Source of the DNA: Pinguiococcus pyrenoidosus
Taxonomy: Eukaryota; Sar; Pinguiophyceae; Pinguiochrysidales; Pinguiochrysidaceae
NCBI GenBank assembly: GCA_019677205.1
Contig: JAAMXY010000123.1
Coordinates: 1 to 22,697 of the forward strand
Reading direction: 5' to 3'
Length of the DNA: 22,697 bases
Shown here: piece after piece, positions 1,215 to 16,580 of the stretch
Layout of the letters: every line of letters starts with the position of its first letter
How positions within the stretch are numbered: the first letter of the stretch is position 1
Position numbers and translations under genes: made by a program
Notes under the pieces: model-generated
What the model was told of the DNA's origin: nothing
Database searches by the model: none
The model's input: only the letters and a program-made list of their open reading frames with translations

Positions 1215-4200
1215 ATGTCGGAAGCGGCCGCGCTGCATGGCCAAGCGAAGGCGTCGTCCATCTTGTCGATCCTGTCGTCTGGCGTGGTGATTTACTGGCT
1301 GCTCGATGAGAGGGGCTTCTTCGACGTCTTCCGGGGGCGGGACCGGATCATCGACTCGGACCCGCACCGCCTCCGCATGACCACGCTCATTCTGGTGCTG
1401 TCGCTCATCGACATCGTGGCGTCCTTCCACTGGATGCTGGGGCCGGTGGGCGACACCTCCAAGCCGTTCTGCGACTACCAGGGCTTCATGATCCAGTGGT
1501 TTGCGCTGGGCGGCATCGTGTGGAACGTGTGCATGGCACACAACCTGTACAACTGGCTCGTGCTCAATAGGACGCCCAAGCAGCTCAGCTTCCTGGTAAG
1601 AAAGACGGAGAGGCGGGGAGAGCGAGGGAGGCCGGGAGGGAAGAAGGTGTCGGCGTTTTGCACCAAAACTCCAGAATTCAAGCGGGGGCCGGCGTTCCAC
1701 GGAGAAGCCTCTCTTGCGAATGAGTGCGTCCTTGCGAGACGTGTTTGCGTGTGTACATACGCATGTGCACATCTCTGGCTCGGTCGTGCTGCGTGGACGA
1801 GCGACAACAAGAACTAATGCTTCTCCCAAAGGTGAACGTCTACCTCATCGTGGGCGTCGGCGGCTGCGGCGTCCTGGCCTTCGTGCTGCTGGCGCTGGAC
1901 GTGTACGGCTACGCGTCGCTGTGGTGCTGGATCGACGAGAAGTACATAGACCTGCGCTTCTACTGCCTGTTCTTCATCCTGTTCGCCGGCTGGATCTACA
2001 ACGGCTTCGTCTTCTACCGGGTGCTCAAGAGCGCCAACAAGGCCACCGGCGACAAGCAGATCACCAAGCGCCTGGCCTTCAAGCTGGAGCTGTTCGTGGG
2101 CGCCTTCGTCCTCACCTGGTTCTTCGGCGGCCTCAACCGCACTCTCCAGTTCTTCGGTGTCGATCTGTTCCCCATTCTGTACTTGCACGTGTTCTTCGTG
2201 CCGCTCCAGGGCTTCTTCAACGCGCTCATCTACGGCGGCCTCTTCGAGTCCGACAGTCCCTTGCGCGCCCAGCTGCGTAGCTTCATCCGCCGCTTGCTCA
2301 ACCAGTCGATGAACCCCATCGACCAGATGGCGGCGGAGGGGGAGGCGGAGGACAAGCGCACCAGCTTCGCCATCCGCGGCAACGTGGACAAGGAGGTGAG
2401 TTTCTACTGCGTGACGTTCAACTTGGGAGAGGCCGACATCGACGGCGTGCGGCCGCTGGGCCAGTGGATCCCGCGCGGCCACGACGTGTACATCATCAGC
2501 GTCCAGGAATGCATGTGCCTGGCGCAGCTCCAGCAATGCATCCAGGACCACCTGGGTGGGCGCGAGCGCTACGTCGGCTACATGAACAACATCGGCAGTA
2601 CGAACAAGCGCCTGGGCTTCCACGGCTACATCGCGCTGCTAGTCTTCGCGCGTGCGGAAGAAGTCGAGTCCGGCGCCTTCAGCCCTCTGCATTCCCTCCG
2701 AGACAACGTGAAAGCCGGCGCGAAGCTTGGCGTCTACACCGCATCCAACAAGGGCAGCGTGTCCTTCCCCTTTGGCTACCACGACACCACCTTCGCCGCC
2801 ATGGGTTGCCACTTCGCCTCGGACAACAAGGGAAAGAGTCGCTTCAAGCAGCGCAACGCCAACACCTACCGCATGCTGGGTCGGTCGACGCTCACGGACG
2901 TCGACACGGGTCTGGATGTGCACATGCTGTTCCACCACACCTTCTGCCTGGGCGACATGAACTTCCGCACCCGCGGAGAGCCCGGACAACTGCTAGGAAT
3001 GGTTGCCGAAGCCTGCCAGATCGAGAAGCAGAGCCAGAATGACAAGGACTGGGTCCGCCGCTTCTTCAGCATCCTGTGCCCCGACACCGGCGCCCAGGAG
3101 TCGCCGTCGCCGCGCGACGACTGGGACATCCGCCAGCTGTCCGACCAGGAGCGCTCGAGGATCTTGACCCCCAACCAGGCGGCACAGGACGCCTGGCGCA
3201 AGATCCTGGACCGCGAGGAACTCACGGCGTCTCGTACGGGAGGTGCGGCCTTCTACAAGTTCGAAGAGCCCGAGGTGCGCTTCCCACCCTCCTTCCGCCG
3301 CGTGCGCGGAGAGGACGGCATGTGCGGCTGCTACACCAACTTGGACAAGCTGCTGGAGAGCTTCGTGCTCAAGGTCAAGGACGTCCGCAAGAAAGGCGAG
3401 AACGACGACGACGACCCCAACGACGATGGCAACGAGGTCAACAACGCGCTGCTGGCCGGCGAAGGCTTCAGTTGGCGTCCGCCGAGCTACACCGACCGCA
3501 TCATGCTGCACAGCCTGGACGACGTGTCCGAGCGCGTGGCCTGCACGGGATACATGATTTGCGACGACGTGTTGGGAAGTGACCACCGTCCGGTAGCCGC
3601 CACGTACAAGGTCCGCCTGAACTCGCTGGTGGCGCCGCACGGGCGCCTCATGAAGGCGCTGGTGGACCCCAGCAAGAACCAGACGACCGTGATGGCCGTG
3701 GACGCCAACAACAAGACCCTGTACAGCATCGAGCTGGCCGACGTGGATATCAGCCTGCTGCCGCGCAACCAAGTGAAGCCCATCTTCGGCGATGCCACGG
3801 CCGGCGAGATGGACGCCGCCGACTACAACCCCGAGACGGATATGGACCTGCTGGACGCAGATGACAAGCCCGACGCCCGCGTGGGCGACGACGAGGACGA
3901 GGACGGAGAGGTCTTGCTCCAGGCGTCAGACTCCAGCGACGACGAAGACGAGGACGGTGCGGAGATTCTGGGCCAGAACTGGCAGCCGTCCAAGCAGTCC
4001 GAGCCCATCATCAACGGCATGACGCTGCTGTTCCCGCTGCCGCCGGAGGACCCGCTGGGCGCCGCGGGGCGCCAGGTGCAGGCCGCGGCCAACGTGTTCG
4101 GGCATCAGCGACGCCCCACGGTGAAGCACCTGGACCCCGGCCACGGCCACGAGCTGCAGTCCCGCGTGACGGCCAAGTGGTCGGACATCGAAGGTGGGAA

Positions 4201-4435
4201 GACCCTGCGGCTCATGTCGCACGGCACAGCCAAGACGGGGCTCCACGCCGCGCTCCGGGTCGAGAACAAGAAGGGCAACGCCATCGCGCAGGCCAGCCTG
4301 TGCTGCGCAGAGCTCGTGGACAAGGGGCCGGTGCAGGTCACGCTGGATCTGCAGCTCGCGGGGATGCAACGGGGCACCATCGACATGACCATCACGGTCG
4401 CTGCAGTGAAAGGCAATCAGGAGGAGTGGATATAA
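1215..4435 (+). CDS. Seven-helix receptor (cAMP-receptor-like GPCR) fused to inositol polyphosphate 5-phosphatase
   Basis: Exons are 1215-1595 and 1832-4435, giving 994 residues. The 236-nt intron (GTAAGA...CCCAAAG) falls between codons and joins helices 3 and 4. Seven hydrophobic helices lie near residues 13-30, 54-76, 89-117, 128-150, 168-191, 208-228 and 239-263. The C86-D-Y-Q-G-F motif before helix 3 and C159 in the next outer loop suit the class E/cAMP-receptor family. From about residue 314 an inositol polyphosphate 5-phosphatase follows: N324, Q352-E353, G501-D-M-N-F-R506, P678-S-Y-T-D-R683 and S-D711-H-R-P714 are the family's catalytic signatures. An acidic linker (about 790-840) and a C-terminal domain of about 130 residues complete it. 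The family removes the 5-phosphate from PtdIns(4,5)P2 or inositol phosphates. I infer a membrane receptor directly controlling phosphoinositides. Oomycete GPCRs fused to phosphoinositide enzymes are known. The start is the first Met in frame that precedes helix 1. Confidence 0.9.
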
Positions 4436-4763: not shown

Positions 4764-4873
4764 TTGCACTGCTCTGTTTTGCATTGCATTGCATTGCATC
4801 GCACTGCACTGCTCTGTTTTGCATTGCACTGCACTGCTTTGCTCTGCTTTGCATCGCTCTGCTTTGCATTGCT
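4764..4873. repeat. Degenerate pentanucleotide tract (TGCAT/TGCAC/TGCTT)
   Basis: About 110 bp is built from TGCAY and TGCTY pentamers with pure runs of GCATT. A block of about 24 bp near 4766-4789 recurs near 4805-4828, so the tract grew both by unit slippage and by a larger duplication. It ends 14 bp before the stop codon of the minus-strand transporter gene and so probably lies in that gene's 3' UTR. The rest of the 4436-4886 spacer holds nothing I recognise beyond this and the 18-bp duplication. Confidence 0.85.
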
Positions 4874-6793: not shown

Positions 6794-6863
6794 CGGCGGC
6801 GTGTAGTCCAGTCGCTCGGGCCTATTCTCACAGGTGACGGCCTCCGTCTCGCGGTGTTGTAAG

Positions 6864-6887
6864 CAGCAGCAGCAGCAGCAGCAGCAG
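6864..6887 (+). repeat. (CAG)8 microsatellite in the bHLH 5' UTR
   Basis: Eight CAG triplets are followed by TAG at 6888-6890. The run lies about 110 bp upstream of the ATG at 7000 and is not translated in the predicted protein. Confidence 0.9.
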
Positions 6888-6999
6888 TAGTGGGCGCCGC
6901 GCGAAGGGCGAGGGGAGGCTCTTTTCAGTGGCGGCGCAGCAGTGTGGGCCGGGAGGCCGGACGGCCCAGTCGGCCCAGTCGGCCTGGGCGCCACAAGCC

Positions 7000-8742
7000 A
7001 TGGCTTCGGCGGCGGAGACGACGCCAGGCTCCGGATGCAGCGGAGTGGCCATCACCAGTGGCGACTCGTCGGATGACGCGCGCGCGTTCTTGTCGTCGGA
7101 CTCCGGCGCGCCCTCCGCGCCGAACTCGTCTCTGTCGAGTTCGGAGGATTCGGGCGTCGCCGGCCTGAAGAGAGCGCCCGAGGACGCCGGAGGCGCCGGC
7201 GGGACCCGCAGAGGCCTGAAGCGACCTCGCGCGACGGGCACGGAGGCGGAGGTGCGCGACTTCCACGAGATGTACAGACGCTACGCCCGACTGGTCGGGA
7301 GCGTGCGGAGGAAGCGGGCGGCCTTGGAGGCGAATGGGGAGCTGATGGAGCTGGTGAAGCTGGAGGACGCGTATGGCTCCGATGGAGCCGAGGGAGAGCA
7401 GAGCAAGAAGACGGGCGACGGAGGAGGGCAGAAGCGGCGGATTGCCAGGAACTATCGGGAGCAGAAGAGGGCGCATCGCATCTCGGACGTCATCGAGCAG
7501 CTGAAGAAGACGCTGGCGGCGGCGGGATTCCCCACCAGGAGCACCAGCAAGTACCACGTGCTCAAGGCGGCGCAGGCGTACATTCAGTCGCTGCAGCACC
7601 GCGAGAGATGTGCCATGATGGAGAAGAAGGTGCTGGAGCAGCTGCAGGGGCAGAAGCAGGGCAGCGTAGACCGCATGACGGTGGCAGATAGAGATCTCCT
7701 GCGGCGACTTCGCGAGGCAGAGGAGGCGACCGAGGCCGCGAAGGCGCTACCGGAGACGGTTAGATCAGCGCACGAAGGCGTTGCGCTTGTTAGGGTAGAC
7801 TTTCGACGCGTGTTTTTCGGATCTCGAATTGCCATGTGTCTGGCGGCCGTGGACGGCCGCATCCTCCGGTGTAACCGGATGTTTGAGCTTGTCATGGGCT
7901 ACACCAGCGAGGAGGCGCGGCAGCTCACCATCTTCTCGCTCGTTCCCCAAGAGTGCCTGCAAGGCACTTTCGAGGCGGCGGGGAGGCTGCTGAGCGCCGC
8001 GCAGGAGGAGTGCTACTTGGCCGAATGCGCCTCGAGCGACGCGGCGCTGAGCATCGGGTCCACTGGGGGCGCCACTGGGTCCACGGGTTCAGGGAGCGGC
8101 GCGAGCGCGTCCCGGAAGCCCTCGACGGCGGCGTCCACGCGGTCGACACTGCAGTCGGGCTCGGGGTCGTCGGTGGGCAGCAGATCGTCAGCTAGCAACG
8201 TGGCCAACGACGCCCTGCAGAGGTACGGCGGCCGCGGACCGTCGCGCGCGTTCGCGACGTTCGCGAAGCCCAAGCGGGGCCACATCCCGTACAGGGATGC
8301 GGGGGAGTACGCACGGCATGGCAGGCTCTACCTTGGGGCGTCCCATGATCGCGGAATGGGCAAGGAGACGAAGGAGACGCTGACGCTGACGACGTCACTG
8401 AGCTCATCGGCGGCTCCGAGCATGGCCGCCCTGCTCGGCGTCCATCAGCTCTGTGCCAGCATCTCGGTCGTGACGCCTTCGGTGGCCGACGGAAGCCCCA
8501 AGGAGCTACAGCATTCGGATGCGTCGTCCTCTTCGTCCGATTCCGTGCTGGATCCGCGCGCTGGAAGCCACTCGCCCAACACCAGTGGAGACGTGAGCGT
8601 ACAGGGCGTGAGGCGCAGCATCGGCAGCTGCAAGCCACGGTTCTTCCACGTGACGATTGTAGATGCGCCGCGGAGAAGCGCGGTGATTCCGCCCGTGCCA
8701 TTGACGATGAAGATGTTTGATCTTGACGACGAGGAGGACTGA
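7000..8742 (+). CDS. bHLH-PAS transcription factor
   Basis: A single exon encodes 580 residues. The frame continues upstream to a GTG at 6928, but the first ATG is at 7000. A Ser/Gly/acidic N-terminus (1-75) leads to a charged helical stretch. A bHLH domain follows at about 145-199, with basic region R-N-Y-R-E-Q-K-R-A-H-R, a loop containing G-F-P-T, and helix 2 ending Y-I-Q-S-L-Q. The R-E-Q-K-R core resembles stramenopile bHLH proteins. A PAS domain begins near 266: the stretch F-F-G-S-R-I-A-M-C-L-A-A-V-D-G leads to G-Y-T-S-E-E near 306-311. After about 325 the fold is interrupted by Ser/Gly/Thr-rich sequence. PAS-like strands seem to resume near 480-490 (A-S-I-S-V-V) and at 547-557 (R-F-F-H-V-T-I-V-D-A-P). 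It should act in the nucleus as a dimer. Diatom bHLH-PAS RITMO1 controls daily rhythms; orthology is not shown. Confidence 0.85.
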   Translation: MASAAETTPGSGCSGVAITSGDSSDDARAFLSSDSGAPSAPNSSLSSSEDSGVAGLKRAPEDAGGAGGTRRGLKRPRATGTEAEVRDFHEMYRRYARLVGSVRRKRAALEANGELMELVKLEDAYGSDGAEGEQSKKTGDGGGQKRRIARNYREQKRAHRISDVIEQLKKTLAAAGFPTRSTSKYHVLKAAQAYIQSLQHRERCAMMEKKVLEQLQGQKQGSVDRMTVADRDLLRRLREAEEATEAAKALPETVRSAHEGVALVRVDFRRVFFGSRIAMCLAAVDGRILRCNRMFELVMGYTSEEARQLTIFSLVPQECLQGTFEAAGRLLSAAQEECYLAECASSDAALSIGSTGGATGSTGSGSGASASRKPSTAASTRSTLQSGSGSSVGSRSSASNVANDALQRYGGRGPSRAFATFAKPKRGHIPYRDAGEYARHGRLYLGASHDRGMGKETKETLTLTTSLSSSAAPSMAALLGVHQLCASISVVTPSVADGSPKELQHSDASSSSSDSVLDPRAGSHSPNTSGDVSVQGVRRSIGSCKPRFFHVTIVDAPRRSAVIPPVPLTMKMFDLDDEED

Positions 8743-15592: not shown

Positions 15593-16580
15593 ATGGATAA
15601 AGACGGCATTCTGGGGGCGCACAAACTCAACATCGCCATCTGGGGCGGTTTCCTCATCTTCTCCTTTCTGGTGTACATGCTGGTGAGCAATGGCGACTTC
15701 TCCTTCCTACTGGTACGTCGTTGTCACTTCACGTGGTCTTCGTGTCGCGACCTTGGAACTCATGCGCACACTGTCCTGTCTCTCTCTCTCTCTCTCTCTT
15801 TCTCTCCCTCTCTCTTCCATCTGATTTTGGTTTCCGAAGACGTATGGCGCGCTGATGCGCACCTTCAGCTTCTTCCTGCTCATCGTGCGCATGGTGATGT
15901 CGAAGAGCTGCCGAGGGATCTCCGTGAAGTCTCTGGAGGCGTATGCGGTGGTGTTCGTGTTCCGACTTCTCTCCATCGTGCGCCACGAGGGCTACTTGCC
16001 GTGGGATAAATCCGGGGACTGGTTTTACCATGTGGTGGAGATCTCCAGCATGGGACTCGTGAGTCTCAGCCTGTACCTCACGCTGGTGCGATTCAGGAAC
16101 ACCTACGACGCGCAGACGGACACGTTTGGCAACCTGCACGTGCCGGATCACCTGGGGGTGGTGTGGCTGCTGGGGCCGCCGCTCGTGCTGGCACTCCTCC
16201 TGCATCCCAACTTGAATAGCGAGTTCTTCTCGGATGTCTGCTGGACGTTCGCGATGTATTTGGAGTCGATCGCGATTTTCCCGCAGCTGTACCAGTTTCA
16301 GCGCCAGGCCGCGCAGAAGAACTTTGAGGTCGAGATTCTGCACGCCCACTTCGTGTCGGCTCTCGGACTCGCCAGAATTATCGAGATGATCTTCTGGAGC
16401 TCGTCCTTCCGGGAGCTGTCGCATTCGTCGAATTCTACGTGGGTGGGAATCTTCGTGCTGGTCGCGCAGATAGTGCACATCCTGATCATGCTGGACTTCT
16501 TCTACTACTACTTCAACGCGCTCAAGTCCGGCACGCCGATGAGACTCCCGCAGCACACGGCCGGCGCAGGCATGGTGTAG
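15593..16580 (+). CDS. ERD2-like (KDEL-receptor family) membrane protein, divergent
   Basis: Exons 15593-15712 and 15840-16580 encode 286 residues; the 127-nt intron (GTACGT...CCGAAG) falls between codons. Family landmarks are K62-S-C-R-G-I-S68 followed by V-K-S, F-R-N-T-Y-D and T-D-T-F, W-T-F-A-M-Y-L-E-S-I-A-I-F-P-Q-L, L-G-L-A-R and D-F-F-Y-Y-Y. ERD2 proteins have seven helices and return escaped ER proteins from the Golgi by binding C-terminal K/HDEL signals. This one has about 40 extra N-terminal residues including an extra hydrophobic segment (about 13-29). By eye, several ligand-contact residues of the animal receptor are replaced. That resembles the ERD2-related (ERP) branch, so retrieval activity is doubtful. 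The intron carries a CT tract. GTGAGC at 15683 is a second possible donor; the later one keeps the frame. Confidence 0.85.
15779..15818 (+). repeat. CT-rich microsatellite in the ERD2-like intron
   Basis: Ten TC units (15779-15798) continue as an imperfect pyrimidine run to 15818. It lies 21 bp before the acceptor at 15839 and may serve as an enlarged polypyrimidine tract. Confidence 0.9.

Follow-up and report, generated by a model that had tools for sequence, protein, structure and literature searches.

Does one gene in this stretch of DNA encode both a receptor and a phosphoinositide enzyme, and would such a fusion be new? The question is raised by a gene at positions 1215-4435 of the 22,697-nucleotide stretch analysed (the window), contig JAAMXY010000123.1 of Pinguiococcus pyrenoidosus. 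An original prediction joined here a class E-type G-protein-coupled receptor (GPCR) to an inositol polyphosphate 5-phosphatase, placed the gene in an apparent alga and read the product as a receptor that would end PtdIns(4,5)P2 or InsP3 signals with no need of G proteins or phospholipase C (PLC). We found that the fusion and the algal source hold; the fusion is not new to algae, and the bypass of G proteins and PLC is a hypothesis. According to its sequence, the predicted protein is a GPCR-INPP bigram (INPP, inositol polyphosphate phosphatase), a fusion type that has already been published, an alga included.

A receptor and a phosphatase in one reading frame

Both halves pass the Pfam cut-offs in the spliced protein. 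Dicty_CAR is found at residues 53-260 (E-value 1.7e-12, 47.6 bits, cut-off 21), and the best stretch of Exo_endo_phos2 (PF22669) lies at residues 321-512 (E-value 2.2e-22, 80.4 bits, cut-off 27). All the motifs named in the original prediction are present, i.e. C-x-x-Q-G-F in the receptor and N324, QE, GDMNFR, PSYTDR and SDHRP in the enzyme.

The gene lies on the + strand, as do all its parts described below, and its two exons and one intron give 994 codons plus a stop. Exon 1 (1215..1595, residues 1-127) carries the start codon, transmembrane helices (TM) 1 to 3 and the next loop. It is followed by an intron of 236 bp (1596..1831, GT-AG, GTAAG...CAAAG), located before TM4 in the receptor half as had been foreseen, and the only one that the frame requires. 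Splicing is needed because a retained intron ends the exon 1 frame at a stop at 1817. The splice joint coincides with the start of TM4, where the protein aligns without gaps to all 13 relatives shown. Exon 2 (1832..4435) encodes residues 128-994 and the stop in a single unbroken frame, comprising TM4-TM7 (1832..2245), the receptor-enzyme junction (2240..2392, residues 264-314), the 5-phosphatase domain (2393..3625, residues ~315-725) and a C-terminal C2-type domain (3713..4405, residues ~755-985).

The junction, also claimed as coding, contains no stop and keeps the frame. Its third-position GC content is 0.96, similar to that of both flanks (0.92 in exon 1 and 0.905 in exon 2), with second positions at 0.39-0.41. 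Exon 2 sits inside an open frame of 903 codons; when the 4 kb around it was shuffled 200 times by single bases, the longest run reached 498 codons, with a mean of 180. Given these shuffles and the 36 of 56 relatives in which Pfam also finds both domains, the open frame and the domain pairing are beyond chance.

The sequence supports a class E/cAMP-receptor-type seven-helix domain in the N-terminal part. The motif CDYQGF is located at residues 86-91 in exon 1 and WCWI at residues 158-161; exon 2 also carries the TM7 stretch QGFFNALIYG, and TM4-TM7 are helices in an AlphaFold2 model. Cys86 is found in 31 of the 36 aligned rows and Cys159 in 33, the remaining five and three rows being gapped at these positions. 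Solved GPCRs match the family profile and, separately, the model of a Triparma relative. The seven-transmembrane (7TM) domain of GPR157 is described as similar to those of cAMP receptors and GPCR-PIPKs (PMC12716839); compared with the GPR157 motifs given there, WCWI is equal, and the TM2 and TM7 stretches resemble them.

In the enzyme half the catalytic motifs are located at N324, residues 352-353 (QE), 501 (GDMNFR), 678 (PSYTDR) and 710 (SDHRP). Thirteen active-site or motif residues are identical in all 36 aligned rows, and His454 is found in 35, with one gap. The residue tally indicates a complete 5-phosphatase active site in the predicted enzyme.

The C-terminal domain and the likely substrate

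By sequence, the best solved relatives of the phosphatase are SHIP2 and SHIP1. Foldseek likewise ranks the SHIP2 phosphatase-C2 structure first by E-value, while the VIA-align Z scores are nearly equal, 35.6 to 33.9, for the SHIPs, INPP5E, INPP5B, OCRL and synaptojanin.

A detail that was not in the original prediction concerns the C-terminal ~240 residues. In the AlphaFold2 model, built from the exon 2 product (TM4 onward), they form a putative C2 domain seated on the phosphatase, as in SHIP1 and SHIP2, and 399 residues of SHIP2 phosphatase-C2 superpose on the model at 3.0 A. Pfam names this part in none of the 36 members scanned. A profile comparison gives a weak match to the C2 domain of SHIP, which together with the matches to SHIP1 and SHIP2 and the conservation within the family is consistent with the assignment. 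The domain contains an acidic insert (3806..4003, residues 786-851, or 659-724 of the exon 2 product), modelled at a predicted local distance difference test score (pLDDT) below 50, and a family motif, FPLPxED, at 861-867. In the model of the Triparma relative many GPCR alignments end at 809-818, just past the helix after FPLPxED, a hint that the stretch following this motif may pack near the receptor.

The modelled arrangement of a 5-phosphatase followed by a docked C2 domain is similar in space to that described for SHIP1 and SHIP2 (INPP5D/INPPL1, PMC5550278). In contrast to the SHIPs, a 7TM receptor takes the place of the SH2 domain: Pfam lists just Dicty_CAR and Exo_endo_phos2 up to an E-value of 1. 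With no SH2 domain found by Pfam, membership of SHIP proper is ruled out.

The pocket differs as well. In SHIP2, Arg682 is said to bind the 3-phosphate and Asn684 the 4-phosphate, and the SHIP1 equivalent of Arg682 is Lys665 (PMC5550278). Here Ser674 replaces Arg682 and Arg676 replaces Asn684, i.e. the basic residue selecting the 3-phosphate is not kept; these positions were mapped by hand through alignments, beside a loop of differing length. At the first position the 36 rows contain G in 21, K in 7, T in 4, S in 3 and E in 1, while the arginine at the second is invariant. Because the SHIP residue for the 3-phosphate is lost, phosphatidylinositol 4,5-bisphosphate, PtdIns(4,5)P2, may be the likelier main substrate, and a strict SHIP-like preference for PtdIns(3,4,5)P3 is weakly disfavoured, with the caveat that seven rows have a lysine there and that the adjacent loop varies in length. 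The same residue speaks against a SHIP-like restriction to PtdIns(3,4,5)P3 alone, although the assembly has two matches to the Ras-binding domain of phosphoinositide 3-kinase (PI3K).

Relatives and published fusions

The search for relatives scored the 7995 candidates sharing most words and found 56; the list is a lower bound, since these candidates alone were scored. The phosphatase domain is present in all 56. The 20 without a 7TM Pfam domain include short or partial proteins and others, e.g. P0025 and P0026, in which hydropathy and motifs point to helices overlooked by Pfam. The closest relative (P0001) aligns to 91% of the query at 41% identity. Oomycetes and Triparma are the organisms visible by name; most of the rest come from metagenomes or transcriptomes, and Nannochloropsis is not visible among the matches listed. 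A profile search at an E-value of 1e-30 gave 16 proteins, seven of them new, and no new named organism. Of the 50 rows shown for a viral fold library, most bear GPCR or phosphatase-family names and some are unnamed; none is named as both.

The pairwise identities of the receptor, phosphatase and C2 parts correlate (0.63, 0.68 and 0.54; each value exceeds all 999 permutations), which is what a shared history of the three parts would produce. In a phosphatase tree the 36 family rows stand apart from four phosphatases of the assembly that lack the fusion, with 99% support in the Shimodaira-Hasegawa-like approximate likelihood ratio test (SH-aLRT). The tree, from a quick search that gave a warning and has long branches to the four host proteins, weakly supports that the fused proteins hold together as a family; neither the age nor the root of the fusion can be read from it.

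GPCR-INPPs were known in 2018 from oomycetes and from the alga Nannochloropsis gaditana, P. infestans and N. gaditana both having seven such genes (PMC5784254), which removes the supposed novelty of the fusion in algae. As described there, seven N-terminal helices and a C-terminal inositol polyphosphate phosphatase share one predicted protein, and in both cases oomycete proteins belong to the group. The host alga is a different one and, in contrast to the seven genes of those species, the query matches no second protein along its full length in the 23.7 Mb, 768-contig assembly; a weak partial match on contig C20 is the only other one among the best candidates scored. The comparison with the N. 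gaditana proteins is by description, not protein against protein. A word search of the main text of PMC5784254 found neither C2 domain nor SHIP, and we found no link of GPCR-INPPs to either in the portions of the open-licence literature covered, supplements being outside that scope.

The GPCR-PIPKs, e.g. RpkA of Dictyostelium and proteins of oomycetes, choanoflagellates and sponges (PMC12716839), similarly combine a related 7TM domain with a phosphoinositide enzyme. Their chemistry is opposite, a kinase in place of a 5-phosphatase, and Pfam finds no PIP5K domain in the present protein, which rules out this identity.

Within the assembly, three contigs match Dicty_CAR and eight the phosphatase family, C62 alone having both. 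For two further Dicty_CAR-type receptors (L024 on C644 and L026 on C102), the frames that were read show no enzyme attached. An unfused protein on C20 (L013:250-3009, +) has the same order of Exo_endo_phos2 and C2. It differs from the fusion in that it has no Pfam receptor domain, its C2 domain is seen by Pfam (E-value 2.3e-10) and it sits apart on a long branch of the phosphatase tree; it may show what the module looks like unfused.

A proposed path from ligand to lipid

How GPCR-bigrams work is described in PMC6033456 as a question still open, with models of direct activation, cleavage, G-protein-dependent action and an inactive enzyme; direct coupling without G proteins had already been proposed. 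A phosphorylation cycle between GPCR-INPPs and GPCR-PIPKs has also been speculated (van den Hoogen et al. 2018, PMC5784254).

The protein is, on balance, probably a GPCR-INPP bigram in which a receptor of the cAMP-receptor/GPR157/GPCR-PIPK type carries a phosphoinositide 5-phosphatase with a SHIP-like C2 tail and a ligand alters the output. This rests on sequence and model: the single frame, the seven-helix domain, the full active site, the C2 domain and the parallel divergence of the three parts. From GPCR topology the C-terminus would be cytosolic, and the receptor would keep the phosphatase at the membrane beside its lipid substrate. Ligand binding would then alter the 5-phosphatase output and lower PtdIns(4,5)P2, perhaps also PtdIns(3,4,5)P3 or soluble inositol trisphosphate (InsP3), near the receptor. 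The ligand might either switch catalysis directly or just set where and when the tethered enzyme acts.

A more specific version, to which we give only tentative credence, is that stramenopile GPCR-INPPs are receptor-gated SHIP-like phosphatases, in which the ligand signal passes through the docked C2 domain and the family-specific FPLPxED helix. If true, a GPCR fold would exert direct allosteric control over a lipid phosphatase, and one polypeptide would lead from an outside signal to the loss of PtdIns(4,5)P2 or PtdIns(3,4,5)P3.

Alternatively, the seven helices could be a membrane anchor or address label alone, with a constitutively active phosphatase and no ligand. The linker, partly low-confidence and uniform in neither length nor sequence across the 13 relatives shown, fits such an anchor, as does the help that C2 domains give to membrane docking in SHIP2 (PMC5550278). 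However, gaps aside, the pair Cys86/Cys159 is never replaced in the aligned rows, and the likeness to the GPR157 motifs is of the receptor kind. We consider a pure anchor rather unlikely.

Conventional signalling through heterotrimeric G proteins, in which the tethered 5-phosphatase would be a feedback or off-switch trimming PtdIns(4,5)P2 or InsP3 locally, is improbable to a similar degree. The assembly has the parts for it: G-alpha matches above cut-off on five contigs, one locus of the PI-PLC-X type and two IP3-receptor-type matches, and G-protein-coupled modes are among the models of PMC6033456. None of the ten other reading frames scanned in the window, however, resembles a pathway partner. 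With these genes present, the canonical pathway is therefore available, and a G-protein bypass is a hypothesis, not a necessity. The same matches contradict the idea that the fusion is needed because the alga is without G proteins or PLC. Two adjacent genes misread as one, their proteins made separately, is very improbable and was rejected, since TM4 to the stop lies in one frame, the junction has coding-type composition and relatives with both domains include named oomycete and Triparma proteins.

The assembly also contains PIP5K on five contigs and three PI3K_C2 matches. The two PI3K_rbd matches, on C537 and C79 (L050 and L051; E-values 1.5e-10 and 5.5e-8), the former contig also carrying PI3K_C2, suggest the presence of a class I-like PI3K.

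GPCR-bigrams unite a receptor with a second-messenger enzyme on a single chain. With a GPCR-INPP that is apparently single-copy, and with G-protein, PLC and PI3K-type genes alongside, this small algal assembly might offer a cleaner test case than the many-copy oomycetes. The C2 domain ties the enzyme half to SHIP2, whose communication between C2 and active site has been measured, and therefore suggests concrete mutations and substrates for testing.

Taking both contigs as one organism, the source is apparently an ochrophyte alga, which agrees with the original prediction. One gene of the window specifies a light-harvesting protein, and the rbcL gene on another contig (L044, C750) has mainly ochrophyte relatives in the 120 rows listed, e.g. 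Chattonella and Olisthodiscus at ~88% identity. Two EukProt entries match this rbcL best, at 100% identity: one labelled Lingulodinium polyedra, along the full length, and one labelled Karenia brevis, along 95% of it. Both may stem from an alga contaminating those cultures.

A scan for bacterial-type promoters was empty, which is uninformative for a eukaryote. By eye, degenerate simple repeats of the GCATT/GCACT type are seen 3' of the gene (window 4770-4870). Elsewhere in the window are a helix-loop-helix protein with weak PAS matches under the Pfam cut-off (6838-8742, +) and a multi-helix ER lumen protein (KDEL) receptor gene (15825-16580, +; E-value 4.4e-32), unrelated to the fusion.
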